Of a stretch of 64,000 bases of DNA, positions 42,746 to 52,680 are shown one piece after another. Within the stretch, counting starts at the first letter, position 1, and the number at the start of each line of letters is the position of its first letter. Made by a program: the position numbers and the translations under genes. The notes under the pieces are model-generated. The model had not been told where the DNA came from and did not search any database. It was given only the letters and a program-made list of their open reading frames with translations. Origin of the DNA: Vicinamibacteria bacterium (GTDB lineage: Bacteria > Acidobacteriota > Vicinamibacteria > Fen-336); assembly GCA_035570235.1 (NCBI GenBank), contig DATMML010000086.1, positions 1 through 64,000 on the forward strand. Direction: 5' to 3'.

Positions 42746-44671
42746 ATGGAAAAGTACGACAACCCAAGCACCTTTCGTCTCATGATCCTTGGCGCCCTGT
42801 GTTGGATTGTGGTGGCGCCATCAACGGCTGACACTGCAGAAACAGGCCGCATTATTGGCCAGATCGACGGCGTCTCTGTCGACGATGGTGGTGCGCACGT
42901 GCGGGGGTGGGCTTGCCAGCTAGGAAGGCCGGAGTCGATTGACGTTCATATTTATGCAAACAACGCCCCGACTGAAGCAAGCAAGAGCATTTTGGGGGTT
43001 GCCGGAAGAGCCGACCTCGGTAACGAAGCCGCGGTCGACGCGGTGTGCAAAGACACCCTGGGGCGTAAGCATCGATTCGATGTGCCAGTGCCCGGCGCGG
43101 TCCTGTTAAAGCTCCACGGCATGCGCCTATTCGTCCATGGGATTCGCGTCGTGGGGACTGTTGAGAATGCCGCGATCAACGGGTCAGGAACGGTCAGCTT
43201 CCCCGACGCCCCTCCGGTCCGCAAAGCACCCGCTTCTTATCCGCGTGTGACCGGGAGTTACGTGAGCTTGAAAGAGCATCCTCGCGTATTCGATGCGCGC
43301 GCCGATTTACAAGATATCGCGCGACGGGCAAACATTCCGGGAACGTTCACCGCCGAGCGATTTGGCGCGCTGGCTGCACGTGTCGGGCAGGCTCTTGGCG
43401 CGAGAATCGATTGGGAAGCGACGTACTCTGGCTGCGACATGGAGATCTATCTGCGCGGGTATGCTTTCGAGCAGAAGCCCGCCTATGGTAACGATCGCTC
43501 CGAAGAAGCCCTGGCGACAGCGATGCAAGTTCGTTCCGGCCTGGCTCCACCACACGGCGCAGCGATTGTGGCTGCACGGGCTGCTCTTTATGCTGCGCTG
43601 GTTCAGGCTGGGGCCAAGCCGCCTGTGGCTGGGCCGACGGTCAGCGCGACTTCGAGTCTGGCGAAGAGCATTGTGTTGGCGTGGGCGGACCACGGCTTTC
43701 GCGACGATGCCGGCGCCTTTCGCAACGCGGACGACAAATATTGCGATCTAGATCCAGATGGCAAGGCCCACACGACGCAATTTGGAACGTTCGTCGGCGC
43801 GTTGACGCACGCGCGCGGCGTCATCTATTCGGTGCATGCCCAGGATCTTCTTGAGGGCATGGGCGCAGTCAACCCCGCCGAACAAGCACGGATGGACATG
43901 TTTCATCACAACATGTTCGATGTCATTCGTTCGATCAACAACGCTCAATACGGTGTCAGTATGAAGTGGCGGTACTCCGACGAGACGTACAACAACCAGT
44001 TCGCCACGCATCTTCTGGCTCTGCTCTCGATTTCCCGCTTGTTGGATGATGGGGAGGATCTAAAGGCTGTACTCGACGGCGGCAAGGGCTCGCGGACTGT
44101 GATATTGCCGTGGATCGAGCTGTTTGACCACATCATTTACGGGCCGAACGACACGCCTCTATTGAACATCACGCCCAATTCGAGCGTCGATCCGGTGAAG
44201 AGCCATCCGGGGTATCAGACGGCCATTGTCGCTGCGGGTGAGATTAACGACCGGTACCGGCACAGTAATCCTTCGCAAGGAATCGGGTACCCGATGGGAT
44301 CTCTGGAAGCGCTATATATGTCGGCGGAGATTCTGAAGAATGCCGGCCTGGACGCATATGGCTACCGGGGCGCGCATGGGCAGTCGATCGAAATGGCGAC
44401 GCAGTACTATGCATGTCTTGCGAAATACGCAGGCTTTGCGGCGATGGTCACCAAAGAGAATTCGGGCCAGTGTCCGGATGCGAGGCAGTATTGGGGCATG
44501 GTGGTGAACGCCGTGCAACCCAATATCCTCATCGGCTCCTATCGCTTTCCCCAGAATCAGGCGCTGACCGAGCTTGAGGTTCCGGCAAGGGCCGCTTTCG
44601 TGAAATCCTCCGGATCGTTGGAGCCGATTTTATTCGGCAAGTGGCGGGATGCGGCAGGTAACGTGCGGTAA
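42746..44671 (+). CDS. Exported polysaccharide lyase-like protein (alginate lyase fold, tentative)
   Basis: A 641-residue exported protein with a signal peptide (about 1-30, hydrophobic LMILGALCWIVVA). Residues ~35-165 form a beta domain with the pattern GWACQLGRPESIDVHIY, seen in bacterial sugar-processing proteins. From ~190 the protein is mostly helical with SLKEHPRVFDARADL, WADHGFRDD, SINNAQYGVSMKWRYSDETYNNQ and ITPNSSVDPVKSHPGYQ; this resembles alginate-lyase-type alpha toroids, but I cannot assign a family with certainty. The gene is visibly lower in GC and more AT-tolerant in codon third positions than its neighbours. It ends 6 bases before an IS21 relic, suggesting acquisition. Confidence 0.6.
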   Translation: MEKYDNPSTFRLMILGALCWIVVAPSTADTAETGRIIGQIDGVSVDDGGAHVRGWACQLGRPESIDVHIYANNAPTEASKSILGVAGRADLGNEAAVDAVCKDTLGRKHRFDVPVPGAVLLKLHGMRLFVHGIRVVGTVENAAINGSGTVSFPDAPPVRKAPASYPRVTGSYVSLKEHPRVFDARADLQDIARRANIPGTFTAERFGALAARVGQALGARIDWEATYSGCDMEIYLRGYAFEQKPAYGNDRSEEALATAMQVRSGLAPPHGAAIVAARAALYAALVQAGAKPPVAGPTVSATSSLAKSIVLAWADHGFRDDAGAFRNADDKYCDLDPDGKAHTTQFGTFVGALTHARGVIYSVHAQDLLEGMGAVNPAEQARMDMFHHNMFDVIRSINNAQYGVSMKWRYSDETYNNQFATHLLALLSISRLLDDGEDLKAVLDGGKGSRTVILPWIELFDHIIYGPNDTPLLNITPNSSVDPVKSHPGYQTAIVAAGEINDRYRHSNPSQGIGYPMGSLEALYMSAEILKNAGLDAYGYRGAHGQSIEMATQYYACLAKYAGFAAMVTKENSGQCPDARQYWGMVVNAVQPNILIGSYRFPQNQALTELEVPARAAFVKSSGSLEPILFGKWRDAAGNVR

Positions 44672-44676
44672 GTCCT

Positions 44677-44829
44677 GTCGACGACTGGGGGAAGCTGCTA
44701 GGGGACACCGCCGCCGTGACGGCTCTCCTTGACCGTCTACTCCACCGCGCCCACGTCCTCAAAGGCGGCCACGAAGCTGGCGCACCAAGTTTCACACCCA
44801 CTTGCGCCAGGAGGAGGCAACGAAGTAAA
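44677..44829 (+). pseudogene. IstB (IS21-family helper ATPase) C-terminal remnant
   Basis: The plus strand reads DDWGKLLGDTAAVTALLDRLL then HRAHVLKGG, the C-terminal part of an IS21-family IstB, with no N-terminal half and a frame change near the end. The same protein end is encoded on the opposite strand at 49490-49768, so these are two copies of one element in inverted orientation. It lies directly between the lyase-like gene and the crotonase gene. Confidence 0.8.
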
Positions 44830-44926
44830 CATCTACCAGTCTCGGCCGCTGCCTGGTGGCCGGTTCTTGGGCCCGTCCAGGAATGGCCCGGTTTTGCGCT
44901 GTCCACCGAGGCTGCAAGACGAAAGG
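44830..44926 (+). repeat. IS21-family terminal region remnant
   Basis: The non-coding end downstream of the istB remnant. It repeats short elements (CAGTCTCGG, TGGCCGGT and a terminal TGTCCACC) that also occur, inverted, beside the istB remnant at 49439-49489. It ends just before the crotonase start and may supply its upstream region. Confidence 0.5.
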
Positions 44927-44937
44927 ATGGATCACGC

Positions 44938-45723
44938 GTGTCGACCACTGACGTCGTACGGTACCGGGAAGACAAGGGCATCGGTTGGATCACCCTGAAT
45001 CGCCCGGAGGCGCTCAATGCCCTGAACACGGACGTCCTCCAACGCCTCGTATCCCTGCTCGATAGCGCTCGAACAGATGACCGGGTCAGAGCCGTGATAG
45101 TGACCGGAGCCGGCGACAAGGCGTTCTCGGCTGGCGCCGATGTCGCTTTCCTCAATCAAGGGACGCCGCTTGAGGTCCGGGACTTTGCCCGGCTGGCGGT
45201 GACGGTGAACCACAAAATCGAAACGCTGGGGAAAGTCGTCGTAGCCGCCATCAACGGCTACGCCCTCGGCGGTGGCCTGGAACTAGCCGAAGCGTGCACG
45301 CTCCGCCTGGCCGTTCGTCATGCCCGGCTGGGGCATCCCGAGGTGCGGATCGGGGCATTTGCCGGCTTTGGCGGCACCACGAGATTCCCTCGCCTCATCG
45401 GCAAGGGACGCGCCGCAGAATTCCTGCTCACCGGAAGTCTGATGAGCGCGGACGAGGCCCAGCGCTTGGGGCTCGTCAACCGGGTGGCCGATCCAGAGAA
45501 GCTGATCCAGGAAACCGAAACCCTCGTCCTCGACATCCTGTCCCAGGCGCCCATCTCGGTCAGGATGACGTGGGAGGCACTTCACCGCGGTCTGAATCTG
45601 ACCCAGGAGGAATCGACTCTGCTTGGCGCCGACTACTTCGGGCTGGTGGCCTCGACGAGAGACTTCCGGGAAGGGACACGCGCGTTTCTGGAGAAGACCC
45701 GTCCTTCCTTCGATGGAACCTGA
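44938..45723 (+). CDS. Enoyl-CoA hydratase/isomerase family protein
   Basis: A 261-residue crotonase, the normal family length, started at GTG 44938 (VSTTDVV; AAGGATGG about 7-10 bases upstream). The oxyanion-hole segments KAFSAGADVAFL and GYALGGGLELAEA are in place. Both catalytic glutamates of true hydratases seem present, one in LELAEA and one in GHPEVRIG. It hydrates trans-2-enoyl-CoA in fatty-acid or amino-acid breakdown, or a related acyl-CoA reaction. An open frame continues 222 bases upstream through the IS21 relic but that extension is IS sequence, not protein. Confidence 0.88.
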   Translation: MSTTDVVRYREDKGIGWITLNRPEALNALNTDVLQRLVSLLDSARTDDRVRAVIVTGAGDKAFSAGADVAFLNQGTPLEVRDFARLAVTVNHKIETLGKVVVAAINGYALGGGLELAEACTLRLAVRHARLGHPEVRIGAFAGFGGTTRFPRLIGKGRAAEFLLTGSLMSADEAQRLGLVNRVADPEKLIQETETLVLDILSQAPISVRMTWEALHRGLNLTQEESTLLGADYFGLVASTRDFREGTRAFLEKTRPSFDGT

Positions 45724-45958
45724 GGGACGCCGCCGGGGGCGGAACAGGGGGACACGCCGCAAGCTGCTCGGAGACACCTCCGGCTGCAACAACCAGGCCC
45801 CCCTAAACCAAGCTAAGACCAACGGAAACCGACGAGCACTCCGGCCGTTGCTGCGGTTCGTCCGCATAGGTTGGTAGCGGCGTAGTAGCAGCCTCCCATG
45901 CGGGCGGCCTCACCAGGCAGGAGATGTGTGCTCGCCAGACTACGGGCCGCGTTGACGC

Positions 45959-46867
45959 TTAAGGCTCTTGGTCCGACGACCTGGGGGCGCTCGCGAGCGC
46001 AACGTTAGTCGCGCGCAGGTAGGTGACTCCGTTAATGGCTTCAACGCGGCCGGTTACCTGCAGCCACTTCCCGGTGTCACCGCGATAGTCGGGATCGAGC
46101 TTCCAGCCTCTGCCCTGCGGCAGCTTGGCCGTCACCCAGACCGCGTTCGTCCCCTGTTTCAGGACCCAGTCGGACGGCGTGCGTTGCGAGCCCGCGGGCA
46201 GGTCACCGAAGAGGTTGCGGCCGGCAAAGACGCCAACCACGGTGATGGGCTTCACCCCGTACGGCCCGGGGTTGTGAATGATCTCCAGCAAGCTGACCCC
46301 GCCCGGCGCAACCGTCTTCTGACCGAAGGGCGTGGTGTCCACAATGCTGAAGAACGTGATCGACACGGGTGGCCAGTCCTGACGCGCGTTAGGCAGGACG
46401 GGCAGCTCGGGATCGAGGCACTTGCTCTCGGGCAGCCGCGTGGCGTAGCAGGGGACACTTTGCTGCTGAGCCGGCAGCACGCGCACGACGCCCGTGAGTT
46501 CGATGGGGCGTCCCACGAGCAGATCGGTATCTCGCGTTCCCTCGATGGCCGGGATCAGGAGAACGCGCGAGATCCCATCGGCCAGGACGAAGTATGGTGT
46601 GTTGCCAGCGAGCGAGCGCAGCTCGCCGGTCGTGCGGACGTTGACACGCTCGTACTGCTGGCCGTTTGAGGTGATGTCGGACAGCCGTACGGGCTCCGGC
46701 TCACCGTAGGACGCGAAGGAAGTTGGCGGGGGAGGCGTTGCGATCGGTCTGACCTGAGCGTCTGCCGTTGCCGGACCGACTAGAAGCAGAAACTGGGCCA
46801 GGTAGCGGATGGGGCCTGCGAGAAACCGATCAAGAGCGACGAGCTGACGATTTGGTCGCCCATTCAA
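45959..46867 (-). CDS. Exported hypothetical protein with two OB-fold-like domains
   Basis: A 302-residue protein. I start it at TTG 46867 (GAGG about 8 bases upstream), which leaves a signal peptide with h-region IRYLAQFLLLVGPATADAQ and avoids overlap with the gene at 46962. The mature part has two beta-rich regions (about 55-140 and 215-300) with OB-fold-like strand patterns: VNVRTTGELRSL...YFVLADG, LTGVVRVLP; and ITVVGVFAGRNLFG, WLQVTGRVEAINGVTYLRA. I do not recognise the family. It is the last minus-strand gene of the cassette-like series but lacks an attC-like site after it. Confidence 0.62.
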   Translation of the reverse strand: MNGRPNRQLVALDRFLAGPIRYLAQFLLLVGPATADAQVRPIATPPPPTSFASYGEPEPVRLSDITSNGQQYERVNVRTTGELRSLAGNTPYFVLADGISRVLLIPAIEGTRDTDLLVGRPIELTGVVRVLPAQQQSVPCYATRLPESKCLDPELPVLPNARQDWPPVSITFFSIVDTTPFGQKTVAPGGVSLLEIIHNPGPYGVKPITVVGVFAGRNLFGDLPAGSQRTPSDWVLKQGTNAVWVTAKLPQGRGWKLDPDYRGDTGKWLQVTGRVEAINGVTYLRATNVALASAPRSSDQEP

Positions 46868-46961
46868 TCCACGTCCCTCGGTGGGACGAACAACGGATGT
46901 GTCTTCACTTGACAGCCGAGGGCCTGATAAGTGTTCGGCGGCTGGCTCGTGACGAGCGTCG

Positions 46962-47234
46962 TCAATGCCATCCGAAGATCCCAAGAAGGACCCTACCACT
47001 GAAAAGCACGACGGAGAACCCGACTACGATAGCTACCACAGTCTCGGCCCGCCGGGGGCCCCGCGAGCATTGCCTTAGACCGTCTCCGAGAGCGATCAGC
47101 CCAAACCAGAGTGGTGCGGAGGCAGCTACGATCAGGAAGAGCAGGTCCCACGTCGGCGGCGCAAGACTCATGGCCGCCCATGCCACGCCGAGTGTCACAG
47201 GCCCTGCGATCGTTGCCTTCGTCAGCGGTGTCAT
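46962..47234 (-). CDS. Small membrane protein in a cassette-like position
   Basis: A 90-residue protein started at ATG 47234 with GAGG 6 bases upstream. Three hydrophobic helices are evident (about 8-25, 30-50 and 65-85), with a central GLRQCSRGPRRAE loop, which predicts an inner-membrane protein. I recognise no family. It lies downstream (minus strand) of attC-like site A and reads in the same direction as the other cassette genes. Confidence 0.68.
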   Translation of the reverse strand: MTPLTKATIAGPVTLGVAWAAMSLAPPTWDLLFLIVAASAPLWFGLIALGDGLRQCSRGPRRAETVVAIVVGFSVVLFSGRVLLGIFGWH

Positions 47235-47361
47235 GTCGGTCCTCGGATTTCCCGCTTACTGTACAGCGCGTGTTTGAGTTGGAGGCGTGCTTAGCCGAGG
47301 CGTGCCGTCGCAATGACGCCGTGATCCTTGCCCGGCTTCGTTGATGCTTCCAACCTACACC

Positions 47362-47431
47362 GCCGAACACTGAGATCAGCGGCGGTGCTCCATCCTTACC
47401 TGGCGCCGTCCGCTGCATCTCACTGTTGCTC
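47362..47431 (-). repeat. attC-like site A
   Basis: On the minus strand this 70-base element begins 13 bases after the stop of the gene at 47444-47818. Its two ends fold on each other: the left arm AACAGTGAGATGCAGCGG pairs with the complement of the right arm (AACACTGAGATCAGCGG) except for two unpaired bases, one in ATGCAGC and, just beyond, an A in GGACGG. Imperfect pairing with extrahelical bases in one arm is the structural hallmark of integron attC sites. Outer core GAGCAAC/GTTCGGC differs from the GTTRRRY consensus at one position. Confidence 0.6.
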
Positions 47432-47443
47432 ACCCTCGCACCA

Positions 47444-47818
47444 CTACTCCTGCGTGTCCTTGAGCCCTTCGATCGGACGGCGGATGGCCTGAACAGCCGC
47501 GATGCAGGACACGCATACGGATCCACGGCCAATCACCGCCAAGAGGTCCTGGATGACCACAGGCATTCGGCAAAGGCTACATCGTGCAGTCAGGACGCGA
47601 CTGCCTTCTCGCACCAGCTTGGCTTGTTCAGCGTGTGGCGTGTCCGCAATGCGGTCGTCCGAGATGATGTCGACGCAGACCTCGATGCACTCGTCGCAGA
47701 TGTGGCTTTTTGGCCCGGCGACGAGCTTGCGGACCTGCTCTTGGCTCTTGCCGCAGAAGGAGCAGTAGAGCCGGGTGTCCCGTTCGTCCGACCGCCGGTC
47801 GCCCTCGCCTGGAGGCAT
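47444..47818 (-). CDS. Stand-alone ClpX-type zinc-finger protein with a second zinc ribbon
   Basis: A 124-residue protein started at ATG 47818. Cysteines C19, C22, C41 and C44 ([24 protein letters not shown]) match the N-terminal C4 zinc-binding domain of the ClpX unfoldase. Four more, C80, C83, C102 and C105, form a second CxxC pair of pairs. There is no AAA+ ATPase domain. In ClpX this domain binds adaptors and substrates, so a stand-alone version could compete for or redirect ClpXP, but that is speculation. It is followed after 13 bases by attC-like site A and preceded by the 176-bp repeat. Confidence 0.78.
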
Positions 47819-47872
47819 CGCTTACCTAGTCGGTCTGCACAAACGAATAAAGGCTGTTTCCGCAGGCACGAT

Positions 47873-48048
47873 ACCGCGTAGGTCGTTCGGCCTAGTTCCC
47901 GTTAGGACCGCCTCGAATGCAGTATAGCGCCCCTGGGGAACGGGCAAGAAGGCAAGCAAGCAGTCTCCCACCAGCCCGTTTGGCGAAGGGACGTGTGGCA
48001 GGCTGCTGGGTTAGGCCGTTCTATTTAGCACGGGCGAGTCGCGCGCGG
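47873..48048 (-). repeat. 176-bp direct repeat, copy 1
   Basis: Identical to 51181-51356 except for two bases. It ends 55 bases upstream of the ClpX zinc-finger gene on the minus strand. The minus strand contains a TATACT -10-like hexamer (complement of 47921-47926) with a TTGCCC 15 bases further upstream; the second copy has TACACT in place of TATACT. I read it as a cassette leader carrying a promoter, or as an attI-like region. It is not a known IS end. Confidence 0.75.
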
Positions 48049-48120
48049 GGGCCGTCAGGCGGGCGCCTGGCTGCTGTTCCGGCACGCGGCCGGCGTGCCG
48101 GCGCCTAAACCGGCGACTTG

Positions 48121-48510
48121 ATGAACCTACGCAAGTTGCGTATGCTTGAATTGCTGGAGTTCATCGAGGCGCCGCGCTTCACGCAGCTCCTGCCCGACTA
48201 TTTGGGCGACGACGACTACGGAGAGTTGCAGATCCATCTCGCGAATGACCCCGAGGCGGGGGAGGTCATCCAAGGCACGGGGGGCTTTCGCAAAGTGCGG
48301 TGGGCGGACCCGAGGAGGGGTCACGGTCGGAGAGGTGGCCTGAGGGTGATCTACTACTACTTCGAACAGGACATGCAGATCTGGTTTCTCACGTTGTACG
48401 GGAAGGACGAGGTTGTGGATCTCAGCCCGAAGGAGAAGCGGCTCCTGAAGGCGGCGATCAATGAGGAGACGCGGCAGCGGGCCCGGCGTCGTGCCTTGAG
48501 GAGAAAGTAA
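48121..48510 (+). CDS. RelE/HigB-type toxin
   Basis: A 129-residue protein of the HigB/RelE mRNA-interferase type. Family landmarks: FIEAPRFTQLLPDYLGDDDYGELQ, then GTGGFRKVRWADPRRGHGRRGGLRVIYYYF and the closing FLTLYGKDEVVDLSPKEKRLL. I use ATG 48121; no clear ribosome binding site precedes it, and ATG 48142 is possible. It lies 4 bases before an HTH antitoxin gene. It is on the plus strand, opposite to the cassette-like genes, so it may have come in separately. Confidence 0.85.
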   Translation: MNLRKLRMLELLEFIEAPRFTQLLPDYLGDDDYGELQIHLANDPEAGEVIQGTGGFRKVRWADPRRGHGRRGGLRVIYYYFEQDMQIWFLTLYGKDEVVDLSPKEKRLLKAAINEETRQRARRRALRRK

Positions 48511-48513
48511 CCG

Positions 48514-48861
48514 ATGACCAAGACCGTGAAGCGAGCGAGAAAGCGGAGCCTGTTCCGCGAGCTCATTTCGGGCGTCCAGGCGATGCGCGAGCACCGCGAG
48601 GGCCGGCTCACACTTCGGACCCACGAAGTCGAGCCTATCGCCCTGCCGAGGCTAAACCCGAAGCTCGTCCGTGAGACGCGCGAGGCGCTCAACATGTCGC
48701 GGCAGGTGTTCGCGTTCCGGCTAGGGGTCAATCCAAGGACTCTCGAGCGCTGGGAGCAGGGGCGCAGCAAGCCCAACGAGCAAGCAGCGGCTCTTATCTG
48801 GTTGGTGCGGAAATACCCCGATACCCTGGAACGGCTCGAATCTCTCAGCGCCTCCGCGTGA
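48514..48861 (+). CDS. HTH antitoxin, HigA-like
   Basis: A 115-residue protein with a C-terminal XRE-type helix-turn-helix (MSRQVFAFRLGVNPRTLERWEQGRSKP) preceded by an N-terminal charged region that would bind the toxin. It begins 4 bases after the toxin stop. In pairs of this type the toxin gene comes first, as in higBA, and the antitoxin represses the operon. Assignment is firm as a toxin-antitoxin pair; specific type is tentative. Confidence 0.86.
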   Translation: MTKTVKRARKRSLFRELISGVQAMREHREGRLTLRTHEVEPIALPRLNPKLVRETREALNMSRQVFAFRLGVNPRTLERWEQGRSKPNEQAAALIWLVRKYPDTLERLESLSASA

Positions 48862-48910
48862 GGCGTCGTTAGTACGCCCGTCCGCACTGAAGCTGGGCGG
48901 GGCTCAGAAA

Positions 48911-48968
48911 GATGGTCAAAGCCGGCCTCCAGATAGCGGGCCGAGACTGGTAAGTGTTTACCTCGTTG
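48911..48968. repeat. Solitary IS21-family terminal remnant
   Basis: The stretch has GTCAAAGCCGGCC, GAGACTGGTAAGTGTTTAC and CTCGTTG in the same order as the end flanking istB at 49439-49489 (TTCAAAGACCGGCC, GAGACTGGTGAATGTTTAC, TTCGTTG). No transposase coding sequence is left beside it. It follows the antitoxin gene by 50 bases. Confidence 0.55.
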
Positions 48969-49125
48969 GCTCCTCCGTTATCGCTTCTGCGTTGCTCGCC
49001 GTTCCCGGCAAGGGGATACGGGCGTCGGAGCGTCTCCCCTGATAGTCTCCAGAGTCGCCCTGGTAGATATCGCTATTGGCTTGCCCATCTTTGCAGCCGC
49101 CTCTACTGCTATTCCCGCGTCACCG

Positions 49126-49389
49126 TCACCACCCCGTAACGCCCCAATAGATCAGGATCGCCCCACCTGCGACGAACCACAGGCGACCAAACCAGCGTGG
49201 CACTCGCTTCCTGACGCTGGGGCGCTGAGTGGGGAGCCCGGCGTAGAAGTCCATGCCCGGCCACAATCCCATAACGATCACTGCAATACCGAGGGCAACA
49301 TGTACAGCCCCGGGCACCTTGAAGGGCTGTCCTCCCATCATCAATACCGAGGCCGAGAGCTTCATTGCAGGCTGCACAGGTTTGTGCAC
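49126..49389 (-). CDS. Small two-helix membrane protein, hypothetical
   Basis: An 87-residue frame starting at GTG 49389, or an internal ATG eight codons later. The hydrophobic helix VHVALGIAVIVMGLW and a C-terminal one, RLWFVAGGAILIYWGVTGW, flank a basic loop, predicting a small inner-membrane protein. There is no clear ribosome binding site and I recognise no family. It reads in the same direction as the cassette-like genes but no attC-like site follows it. Confidence 0.45.
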   Translation of the reverse strand: MHKPVQPAMKLSASVLMMGGQPFKVPGAVHVALGIAVIVMGLWPGMDFYAGLPTQRPSVRKRVPRWFGRLWFVAGGAILIYWGVTGW

Positions 49390-49438
49390 ATTGGCCTCTA
49401 CCCCTGTCCCAGCGATGTTCTTCGGTCCGTATCCTTAG

Positions 49439-49489
49439 TGGACACTTCAAAGACCGGCCAGCAGCTAAGCCTCCGAGACTGGTGAATGT
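49439..49489 (-). repeat. IS21-family terminal region beside istB remnant
   Basis: Beginning at TGGACACTTCAAAG, this stretch carries the presumed terminal inverted-repeat end of the element whose istB remnant follows. Its motifs recur at 44830-44926 (inverted) and 48911-48968, so three traces of one element family lie within 5 kb. Confidence 0.5.
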
Positions 49490-49790
49490 TTACTTCGTTG
49501 CCACCTCCTGGCGCAAGTCGGTGTGAATCTTGGTGCGCCAGCTTCGTGGACCGCATTTGAGGACGTGTGCGTGGTGGAGTAGCCGGTCGAGGAGAGCGGT
49601 CACGGCGGCGGTGTCTCCAAGCAGCTTGCCCCAGTCGTCTACGGGGCGGTTGGAGGTCAGCAGGGTTGAGGCGCGCTCGTAGCGCCGCATGACTACCTCG
49701 AGGAGGTCTTCGGCGGCCGTGTGAGGCAGTTTACGCATGCCGAGGTCATCGACTATGAGCAGCGGCACCGAAGTGAGGTCAGCAAGAAGA
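49490..49790 (-). pseudogene. IstB (IS21-family) C-terminal remnant, second copy
   Basis: The minus strand encodes the C-terminal part of IstB: LLADLTSVPLLIVDDLGM, LLTSNRPVDDWGKLLGDTAAV, HAHVLKCGPRSWRTK and a normal terminus VATK. The Walker A half is missing, the frame simply starting near 49790. It is in opposite orientation to the remnant at 44677. It interrupts the series of cassette-like genes. Confidence 0.85.
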
Positions 49791-49918
49791 CGAAGGGGTA
49801 AATGACGCGGAACCCAGCCGCCAGTGCGACGACGAAGACCACGCAGTTGACGCCGGCCGCCGCGACCTCAGTGGTGATTCGACGAAACGTCACCAGTAGG
49901 CAGTCCTCCTCTGTTTCC

Positions 49919-49990
49919 CTCGAACACCGAGATCAGCGGCGAGGTTCCGTCCTATGGGTCGGCCTCGTCGGCTGCATTTTGTCGTTGGAC
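49919..49990 (-). repeat. attC-like site B
   Basis: On the minus strand, GTCCAAC opens the element (a perfect RYYYAAC core). The arms AATGCAGCCGACGAGG and, from the other end, GAGATCAGCGGCGAGG pair with the same two unpaired bases as at site A (G in TGCAGC, A in GACG). The closing core GTTCGAG is degenerate. It overlaps the 3' end of the gene at 49933, as attC sites often do, encoding its odd terminal KMQPTRP-like residues. Confidence 0.55.
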
Positions 49991-50427
49991 GGCCCGCTGC
50001 ATACGCAGTCACCCGCTTGGAGTCGAACCCGCTCGTTGATCACACCACGGGCAGAACGTGCCCAGATAGTTCTAGGATCCCAGGAACAGGCGGCGGCCGC
50101 TGGACCGAGCAACGCCTTCATGATGGTCTCATCCATGTGTCGGCGGATTGCCATCTTGACGAGATCCTCATGTTTCAGTTCCTCTTCAAGAGCCAGTTCA
50201 AGTTCCACAGCCTCGAGAGAATCGAAGTGGAACGTCTGCTCGGGAAGCACATCCCGAAGGGCCGCCTCGGGATCAAGGTCTGCCAGGTCCGATCCACAAA
50301 GCTGCTCAACCGCTAGGAACACCGCCGAGGCTTCTTCAGCGTGCTTCCTGCAGCCCCTAAAGTAATGGTTGACGAAGGCCTGCGCGCCCTTCATTTGGCT
50401 AGCTCGCCGCCTTAGGATACTCGTCAC
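49933..50427 (-). CDS. Hypothetical cassette protein
   Basis: About 164 residues, started at GTG 50427 because the longer open frame begins inside attC-like site C. The protein is acidic and helical: HFDSLEAVELELALEEELKHEDLVK and EQLCGSDLADLDPEA suggest an alpha-helical cytoplasmic protein. The last ~50 residues read through low-information sequence and attC site B, so the true end is uncertain or frameshifted. I recognise no family. It is preceded by attC-like site C and followed by site B, the classical single-gene cassette arrangement. Confidence 0.5.
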   Translation of the reverse strand: MTSILRRRASQMKGAQAFVNHYFRGCRKHAEEASAVFLAVEQLCGSDLADLDPEAALRDVLPEQTFHFDSLEAVELELALEEELKHEDLVKMAIRRHMDETIMKALLGPAAAACSWDPRTIWARSARGVINERVRLQAGDCVCSGPSNDKMQPTRPTHRTEPRR

Positions 50428-50451
50428 GTTCCGCCACTCCGTGGGATGCCC

Positions 50452-50571
50452 GTCGAACCCCCGGATCAGCTGCATAGCCGGTGCTCGCCGAATGGCGAGC
50501 ACGAGGCGCCGCCTTGAATTTTACGCCGGCCGGCGCCGAGAGGCGCCGTCAGCTGCATCCGGTCGTTCGGT
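50452..50571 (-). repeat. attC-like site C
   Basis: This element starts 12 bases after the stop of the gene at 50583-51146. On the minus strand the arms CGAACGACCGGATGCAGCTG and, from the far end, CGAACCCCCGGATCAGCTG pair with the extra G in TGCAGC and an extra A after CAGCTG left unpaired, exactly as at sites A and B. The central part is longer (total 120 bases) and has further hairpins (GGCGCC, GCTCGCC/GGCGAGC). Core ends are CCGAAC/GTTCGAC. Confidence 0.6.
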
Positions 50572-50582
50572 CGCAGGGTCGC

Positions 50583-51146
50583 TCACCAGCCTTGCCTCCA
50601 GTGATACCACGGGCCGCCCAGGGCGCTGTAGATGTCCCTACCGATCCTGGGCGGTTCAGCGACTGGGCTGTACACCACGCCGCAGTCGTCAAACATGCAC
50701 TGGGTGGTGATCAGACGTACCACGCCACCGGGGAGAGCCTCGGCTTCCCGTAGCCAGAAGAGACCGACTCGGACTCCCGGCCTGAACTCCCCATGACGAA
50801 TTGACGGCCGTGCACGCTGCACGTAGCTCTGGAGGGCGGGCCTACTCAGCCAGAACCGAATTCGGAACGCGGCTTCACTCCACACGAGGGCGAAACACAG
50901 CGCGAGCGCAGCAGGCTGAGCGATCACCCTTCGCAGATGCCTCTGCCCCGGCAAGCCCCTTGTGTTGAGGAGATGCAGTCCGGCACGCAGGCTCCAAACG
51001 ACGAGCACCGCTACGCCACCCCAGACCAGTGCGAGAAGAACCGGCACCGTGAGTCCCGCGTCGCTCCCGAACGCGAGAACGTAGATGGCCCAGCCAGACC
51101 CGGCGCTTACGGTGAGGATGGCAAGGACACGCTCAAGAACGCGCAC
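50583..51146 (-). CDS. Hypothetical cassette membrane protein
   Basis: A 187-residue protein started at GTG 51146. Three hydrophobic helices (about 5-27, 32-60 and 75-95) are followed by a soluble C-terminal half with RIGRDIYSALGG near the end and cysteines in TTQCMFDDCGVVY. I recognise no family. It is the first gene after the 176-bp repeat (35 bases upstream of its start) and is followed after 12 bases by attC-like site C. Confidence 0.65.
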   Translation of the reverse strand: MRVLERVLAILTVSAGSGWAIYVLAFGSDAGLTVPVLLALVWGGVAVLVVWSLRAGLHLLNTRGLPGQRHLRRVIAQPAALALCFALVWSEAAFRIRFWLSRPALQSYVQRARPSIRHGEFRPGVRVGLFWLREAEALPGGVVRLITTQCMFDDCGVVYSPVAEPPRIGRDIYSALGGPWYHWRQGW

Positions 51147-51180
51147 AACGCCTCGCCCGCGCTTTCAATGTGGGCCGAAC

Positions 51181-51356
51181 ACCGCGTAGGTCGTTCGGCC
51201 TAGTTCCCGTTAGGACCGCCTCGAATGCAGTGTAGCGCCCCTGGGGAACGGGCAAGAAGGCAAGCAAGCAGTCTCCCATCAGCCCGTTTGGCGAAGGGAC
51301 GTGTGGCAGGCTGCTGGGTTAGGCCGTTCTATTTAGCACGGGCGAGTCGCGCGCGG
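51181..51356 (-). repeat. 176-bp direct repeat, copy 2
   Basis: 174 of 176 bases match 47873-48048. On the minus strand it ends exactly at a GTTCGGCC that opens the following cassette, and contains an inverted GGCCGAAC 12 bases before it, so the junction resembles a simple integron att site. It lies between the recombinase remnant (51410-51590) and the first cassette gene, the position of attI. Confidence 0.72.
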
Positions 51357-51409
51357 AGGGAGCAAGAATCGTCCAAGTGGCCTACGAGGCCAGATCTCCA
51401 ACAACGGAG

Positions 51410-51590
51410 AATAGTCGAGCCGGCTGACCACGTCGTGGCCTCTGCGATTGAGGACGTGAGTCTAGACGCGTAGTGTTCACGTCTGAGTGGCCCAGGGAGC
51501 TCCTAAATGGAGCGGATACCATCGTAGTCAACCCAAACCCTGCCGGCAGCGCCGTCGCGTTATAAACGATCCTGGTGTGTGGAACGTCTT
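51410..51590 (-). pseudogene. IntI-like tyrosine recombinase remnant
   Basis: Reading the minus strand across two frameshifts gives IRSI-stop-EL, then LGHSDVNTTRL, then THVLNRRGHDVVSRLD. The last two blocks match the C-terminus of integron integrases (LGHS..TT..YTHVLN.GG.GV.SP.D pattern). A glutamine codon before EL has become TAG, one base is inserted before LGHS, and two bases are lost where the catalytic tyrosine should be. Weaker similarity (TFH, then SFIT, as in TFRHSFAT) continues to about 51590. The rest of the gene is not recognisable. Confidence 0.65.
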
Positions 51591-51811
51591 GAAACAACCC
51601 TTTGGAGCCGCTCGGCCCTGCGGGCCTCGCCCCAAGCGGCACAGATCCTCGAAGGGGTGATCGTCCGGGCCGGTCTCCGCCAGTCGCGACTACCGAGGAC
51701 GGCCGGTCTATTTCGAGTAATGGTGTGACCCATATGTGACCCAGCGTCGAGCCGGGAAACAGGTTTGGGTCACACATGGCCGTCAGTGACTGATTGTCAG
51801 GGAGTTGTTGG
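51591..51811. other. Stretch between recombinase remnant and tRNA-Lys
   Basis: About 220 bases with no recognisable gene. The minus-strand frame open across 51382-51822 is not a gene; it passes through the recombinase remnant in the wrong frames for much of its length. No direct repeat of the tRNA 3' end was found nearby by eye. Confidence 0.4.
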
Positions 51812-51884
51812 TGACCCGCCATGGACTCGAACCATGAACCCAGAGATTAAGAGTCTCTTGCTCTACCAATTGAGCTAGCGGGCC
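51812..51884 (-). tRNA. tRNA-Lys (anticodon CTT)
   Basis: A 73-base cloverleaf on the minus strand. The acceptor arms GGCCCGC and GCGGGTC pair with one G-T wobble, discriminator A, no encoded CCA. The D arm is GCTC...GAGC, the anticodon stem AGAGA/TCTCT encloses loop CTCTTAA with anticodon CTT at positions 34-36, and the T arm contains GGTTCGAGTCC. It borders the accessory segment. Confidence 0.95.
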
Positions 51885-51957
51885 ATCGCGCGACCGACAT
51901 TTATACCCTGGATGGCGAGTCCCGAGCAAGGCGGGTCGGAGTAAGCTTGAAGCTGGA

Positions 51958-52680
51958 ATGACGCGCCGCCGCATCGAAGACGGCTACCGGCGTCGATTCT
52001 GGGCCCTCCTTGCCCTCGTCCGTCCACGCCGGCTGGAATTCGGCGTGGATTTGCTCCTCGAGCGGGCGCGGGAAAAGAGCGCCCGCGAGGGGATCGCTCT
52101 GGCTCGCGCCCTGGCTTTCGTCTACGAGTTCACGCGGGTCCGGGTGGAGCGGCGGTTGCGGCTCATGGAAGGGTGCGGGCTCGGGAGCCGAGTGGAAAAG
52201 GGGTTCGCCGGGACGCCCCCGCGGTTCCTTTGCGATTCGAGTCTGGGAGGCCTCGCGCGTTGGCTGAGAGCGGCCGGCTACGAGGCCCGTCAGGGGGCAG
52301 CCGGATCGGGGGACCGCCTTCTGGAGGAGGCGGCGGGCGGGGGCTTCGTGCTCTTGACGAGCGACAGCCGTCTGCTGGACCGTCGTCCCCTCCGCGAGTG
52401 TGCCGTGCCCGCACTTTGGATTCCCTCCGCCTTTAGCAAGCGCGAGCAGCTCGCGATGCTGATGCGGGACCTGGGCCTCCAACCGCGGGCCGCGCGTTGC
52501 ATGGCCTGCGGAGGGGAGCTACAGCCAACGCCCAAAGAGTCTGTGCTCGCGCGCATCCCGCCCCGCACCGCGCTCTGGAAGAACGAATACTTCGTCTGCG
52601 CGGGCTGCAATCGACTCTTCTGGCGGGGCACCCACTGGGAGCGGATTTCGGGCGCCCTCCGGGTGGCGGCGGGAACGTGA
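51958..52680 (+). CDS. Mut7-C RNase-domain protein
   Basis: A 240-residue protein. The N-terminal ~80 residues are a basic helical region. From ~88 the Mut7-C domain (PIN-like RNase fold) follows: FLCDSSLGGLARWLRAAGYEA, the acidic LLTSDSRLLDRR and a C-terminal zinc ribbon (CMACGG and CAGCNR). By family it is a putative RNase; cellular role is not defined in bacteria. It starts with ATG and its TGA overlaps the next gene's GTG. Confidence 0.85.
   Translation: MTRRRIEDGYRRRFWALLALVRPRRLEFGVDLLLERAREKSAREGIALARALAFVYEFTRVRVERRLRLMEGCGLGSRVEKGFAGTPPRFLCDSSLGGLARWLRAAGYEARQGAAGSGDRLLEEAAGGGFVLLTSDSRLLDRRPLRECAVPALWIPSAFSKREQLAMLMRDLGLQPRAARCMACGGELQPTPKESVLARIPPRTALWKNEYFVCAGCNRLFWRGTHWERISGALRVAAGT

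Follow-up and report, generated by a model that had tools for sequence, protein, structure and literature searches.

In this work we have analysed a stretch of 64 kb of DNA (the window) and found on its minus strand a short gene stub, which is very probably a decayed remnant from the 3′ end of intI, a genuine chromosomal gene for an integron integrase, that headed a small array of gene cassettes. The locus now appears to be a relic resembling a CALIN, a cluster of attC sites lacking an integron integrase: three attC sites of 38–54 bits, as scored with our own model, lie behind the stub and there is no functional intI nearby.

The integrase stub and its family

The stub and the smaller of its lesions are as follows.

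51411 to 51530, minus strand: 3′ end of a decayed integron integrase gene, about 36 codons in three frames (frameshift-aware profile alignment, family ranking)
51503 to 51505, minus strand: TAG replacing the conserved Gln codon of IQELLGH (alignment to relatives)
51491 to 51502, minus strand: GAGCTCCCTGGG, one extra base (C) giving a +1 frameshift between EL and LGH
51467 to 51474, minus strand: ACTACGCG, loss of two bases in Met-Ile codons (alignment to relatives)
51462 to 51464, minus strand: amber TAG in place of TAC, the codon of the catalytic Tyr (alignment to relatives)

The readable pieces are, in order, YDGIRSI*EL, LGHSDVNTTR and V*THVLNRRGHDVVSRLD, each in its own frame. The initial annotation had aligned such pieces with the C-terminus of integron integrases, and our searches agree with it. 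A profile made from eight IntI proteins of relatives in the same bacterial family scored 31.1 on minus 51526-51414 when frameshifts were allowed in the alignment, compared with a mean of 14.5 and a maximum of 22.8 for 200 dinucleotide shuffles of the stretch. This was the highest IntI match in the 64 kb (the runner-up among 592 chunks of both strands reached 21.5), and the alignment extends to the IntI C-terminus, GVxSPLD. When the pieces were joined, their best match among tyrosine-recombinase families was TIGR02249, the NCBIfam integron integrase (1.1e-10, positions 279–313 of 315), followed by XerC/D/PRK00283 with 1.9e-6 to 3e-5, which upholds the naming of the pseudogene as IntI. Could the similarity nevertheless be due to chance, or be that of a generic tyrosine recombinase such as a XerC/D-type pseudogene? 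LGHSDVNTT and THV also occur in Xer proteins and a Xer profile scored 23.7 on the same stretch. However, this profile, from which the IntI sequences had been taken out, is surpassed by the IntI profile, and the tail LNRGGxGVxSPLD is found in IntI only. The family ranking refutes this explanation, which we consider extremely improbable. The ranking supports IntI as the right family for the stub.

The biggest of at least five lesions is the loss of about 290 of about 330 codons. The initial annotation missed this truncation, by which about nine tenths of intI are gone. With the IntI profile, no IntI sequence was found in the window chunks upstream of about 51530, which corresponds to about codon 292 of the 330, and the following feature leaves no room for the remainder of the gene.

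51809 to 51884, minus strand: tRNA-Lys (CTT), about 280 bp upstream of the stub

The additional domain (patch) of IntI, which the initial annotation had proposed to look for further upstream, is absent there, because that part of the truncated gene is gone. With only about 36 codons surviving, the stub lacks this defining domain, and we class it as what is left of an IntI gene and not as an IntI. The flank of tRNA-Lys and a Mut7-C gene was considered as a conserved insertion site and rejected, the Mut7-C gene of the relatives having neither a tRNA nor intI adjoining it. Positions 51550-51705, upstream of the stub, resemble 652-818 of locus L061 in the relative G010, with no IntI next to the latter.

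The neighbourhood of a tRNA gene raises the question of whether the stub instead comes from the end of an integrase of a phage, ICE or island for which tRNA-Lys served as attachment site, the array being unrelated to it. Besides the tRNA-Lys, whose 3′ end is 280 bp from the stub, a further remnant in this genome (on contig C133, see below) lies a few hundred bases past a tRNA-His. However, the joined pieces match phage integrases only weakly (PHROGs 0.028 at best, PF00589 0.027) against 1e-10 for the integron integrase, attC sites stand right behind the stub on the same strand, and no copy of the tRNA end is among the window repeats listed. The initial annotation had itself set a better phage or ICE match against its reading; we looked for one and found none. 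The ranking of TIGR02249 and the attC sites mostly refute this origin, which is very unlikely.

The remaining lesions correspond in part to those described in the initial annotation. The TAG in place of a glutamine codon is present at plus 51503-51505, and the single inserted base is the extra C in GAGCTCCCTGGG. The loss of two bases, which had been placed on the tyrosine codon, falls by DNA alignment with relatives just 5′ of that codon, inside the preceding Met-Ile codons. In the alignment to the relative G003, TCTAGACTCACGTCCTCAATCG and TCTACACCCACGTCCTCAATCG differ at only 2 of 22 bases, so that the tyrosine codon TAC corresponds to TAG, in frame with THVLNRR. The catalytic tyrosine has thus been lost, as had been claimed, but through this amber codon and not through the two-base loss.

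attC sites, cassettes and an attI-like repeat

A covariance model built from 18 attC sites of relatives (our own model, not that of IntegronFinder) identified three attC sites in the 64 kb, with E between 4e-9 and 6e-14, all of them 3′ of the stub and on its strand (minus). There was no fourth site below E 0.1 in the window, and in an unfiltered search of 44000-52500 the same three sites ranked best. From the stub onwards the array reads as follows.

51181 to 51359, minus strand: attI-like segment, copy 1, following the IntI stub and preceding cassette 1 (position and repeat boundary)
50583 to 51146, minus strand: gene of cassette 1, 187 aa, no Pfam match
50448 to 50575, minus strand: attC site 1, 38.3 bits (covariance model)
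49933 to 50502, minus strand: gene of cassette 2, 189 aa or fewer, without a significant match in Pfam, start probably internal
49915 to 49994, minus strand: attC site 2, 53.6 bits (covariance model)
47873 to 48051, minus strand: attI-like segment, copy 2, directly before the cassette gene 47818-47444 (repeat)
47444 to 47818, minus strand: gene of cassette 3, 124 aa, ClpX-type C4 zinc finger
47358 to 47435, minus strand: attC site 3, 52.9 bits (covariance model)

Two of the ORFs, one of them that of the ClpX-type zinc finger protein, end 8 bp before an attC site, and the third extends into one. The surroundings also contain an inverted repeat (88–91%; 44674-44850 and 49468-49645) of an IS21-type istB end, which flanks about 4.6 kb including part of the array, with an IstB fragment at 49493-49768. 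A gene pair resembling RelE/HigB and an HTH antitoxin (48118-48861) adjoins the second attI-like copy on the plus strand, opposite to the cassettes. Elsewhere in the genome we noticed further attC-like sites, single or paired and some near contig ends, at C67:158-244, C97:23650-24463, C1:63590-64367 and C80:1694-1784; no IntI remnant was found beside them.

The two attI-like segments form a direct repeat of 179 nt, 98% identical and without a further copy elsewhere in the genome. One base separates the end of the identity from 51178-51180, a GTT resembling the crossover point of a cassette, which is what would be expected for an attI joined to a cassette. Judging from its position and the repeat boundary, we suggest that copy 1 is attI, and the repeat is possibly a duplicated attI. 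The segment showed no similarity beyond chance to the intervals between intI and attC in relatives, except weakly for G008. It was also tried as an attC, with no match to the attC model, and its folding exceeded that of shuffles only moderately and on one strand (z of -2.0 and -0.6).

Other IntI remnants in the same genome

Two more decayed IntI 3′ ends were found. The one at C133:440-555 (L052, recorded over 350-555) shares 75% identity with the window stub across 170 nt. It lies downstream of tRNA-His, the block in common with the window starting 224 bp after that gene; 26 bases of this block equal window 51573-51598 except for one R position. The other, at C88:2054-2175 (L053), is on the minus strand between ordinary genes. 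All three remnants start at nearly the same codon, and their frameshifts and stops differ. Ahead of the IntI homology, two remnants, each a few hundred bases after a tRNA gene, have about 75 bp in common. This sequence was considered as decayed IntI and gave no significant match; an exact search of 84,980 genomes for a 21-mer of the block in common with C133 found nothing, and a 26-mer had no match in 59 relatives with three mismatches allowed. An integrase on C98 was tried as a living IntI and scored well below the cut-off; it adjoins what we take, from its sequence, to be an IS91-like transposase.

Is it possible that an intI 3′ end with attI was repeatedly retained or copied as a module that would serve to express cassettes or to capture them in trans, and is not only debris? 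The attI-like copies have stayed 98% identical beside a badly decayed stub, and the near-common start of the three remnants, like the tRNA genes and the upstream sequence that two of them share, would fit such a module. Against this, the C133 and C88 remnants have no attC or attI-like copy alongside, and the lesions of the remnants differ and look neutral. We regard a module of this kind as very unlikely and favour decay.

Relatives and orientation of the integron

The family is represented by 14 genomes, counting that of the window. Seven of them have an IntI above the TIGR02249 cut-off (265 bits), and in an eighth, G010, IntI is interrupted by a contig end. The window's genome has no IntI above this cut-off in its draft assembly of 138 contigs; as assemblies break at arrays, a gap could conceal an intact intI. 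In one of the seven, G003, intI is split inside the HTLRHSFATH motif (L060, on C127, 2623-7120), and the insert holds three tyrosine-recombinase genes of a RIT-like kind. The intact IntI of the relatives possess the additional domain; that of G008 matches the solved IntI4 (2a3v) with 3e-80, this domain included, and the 3′ end of its gene points toward an array with about 20 cassettes, whose ORFs are nearly all on the IntI strand.

The same arrangement, with the intI 3′ end toward the array and in the direction of the cassettes, is present in the window and in six relatives (G002, G003, G006, G008, G009 and G012). We also searched 80 IntI loci of named genomes with our attC model. At eight of these the attC sites were 3′ of intI and on its strand (five Acidobacteria and one each of Deltaproteobacteria, Spirochaetes and Omnitrophota), while the classical layout, attC 5′ of intI on the other strand, was seen at nine, mostly of Proteobacteria. 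Loci with intI toward attI and attC 3′ of it are L159, L160, L198, L202, L218, L216, L204 and L152, several of them acidobacterial and a few from other groups. The attC and IntI matches of the window likewise point to the Acidobacteriota. The survey backs the orientation that we assign to the window, and the layouts support the view that its intI probably ran toward attI, in the direction of the cassettes.

Decay of the integron and comparison with known systems

On its 5′ side intI has been shortened by about 90%, the place of the missing part now being taken by tRNA-Lys and unrelated sequence. What remained has acquired the stop at the Gln codon, the +1 and −2 shifts and the amber codon at the catalytic Tyr, and the array behind it has kept three recognisable attC sites, leaving a CALIN-like relic. 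The order of these events is our reconstruction. IntI moves cassettes, not the integron. The initial annotation regarded the element as unable to move by its own integrase; it was right that this integrase is dead, but cassettes are what IntI moves. Since all three attC sites continue to agree with the attC model, an IntI acting in trans could in principle move the cassettes. Otherwise they are presumably frozen.

The window documents the loss of the integrase in an acidobacterial lineage whose relatives keep integrons that look active. The tool for shuffling cassettes is gone and the cassettes are kept, a common fate of integrons. An attC model specific to the lineage exposes arrays, and the layout of intI toward attI, beyond the well-studied proteobacteria, and even a very short remainder of intI can mark the place where a CALIN once had its head.

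The decay of intI has precedents. In one survey nearly one third of the intI genes were pseudogenes, or belonged to ‘pseudo-integrons’ (PMC2426708), with frameshifts and stops like those of our stub; however, the window keeps only about 10% of the gene and lacks the additional domain which that survey demanded for intI. CALINs are common and have been proposed to be degraded integrons that can be mobilised in trans (PMC9024848, PMC12444791). The window locus resembles them in having at least two attC sites and no functional intI nearby, but part of its own intI is still recognisable as a stub. Transcription of intI toward attI is known from the chromosomal integrons of the Treponema type (PMC3607928), whereas the window belongs to another lineage, the Acidobacteriota, and its integrase is dead. 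Arrays that contain attI, such as attI1-aacA4-attI1, have been described in mobile integrons of classes 1 and 2 (PMC12901181), and the second full attI-like copy inside our array recalls them, although in the window the segment is attI by inference only. The decay of intI and CALINs are thus already well known, and the window locus is a well-supported new instance of them. The odd part is that truncation of the IntI 3′ ends on C133 and C88 has occurred at almost the same codon as in the window stub.
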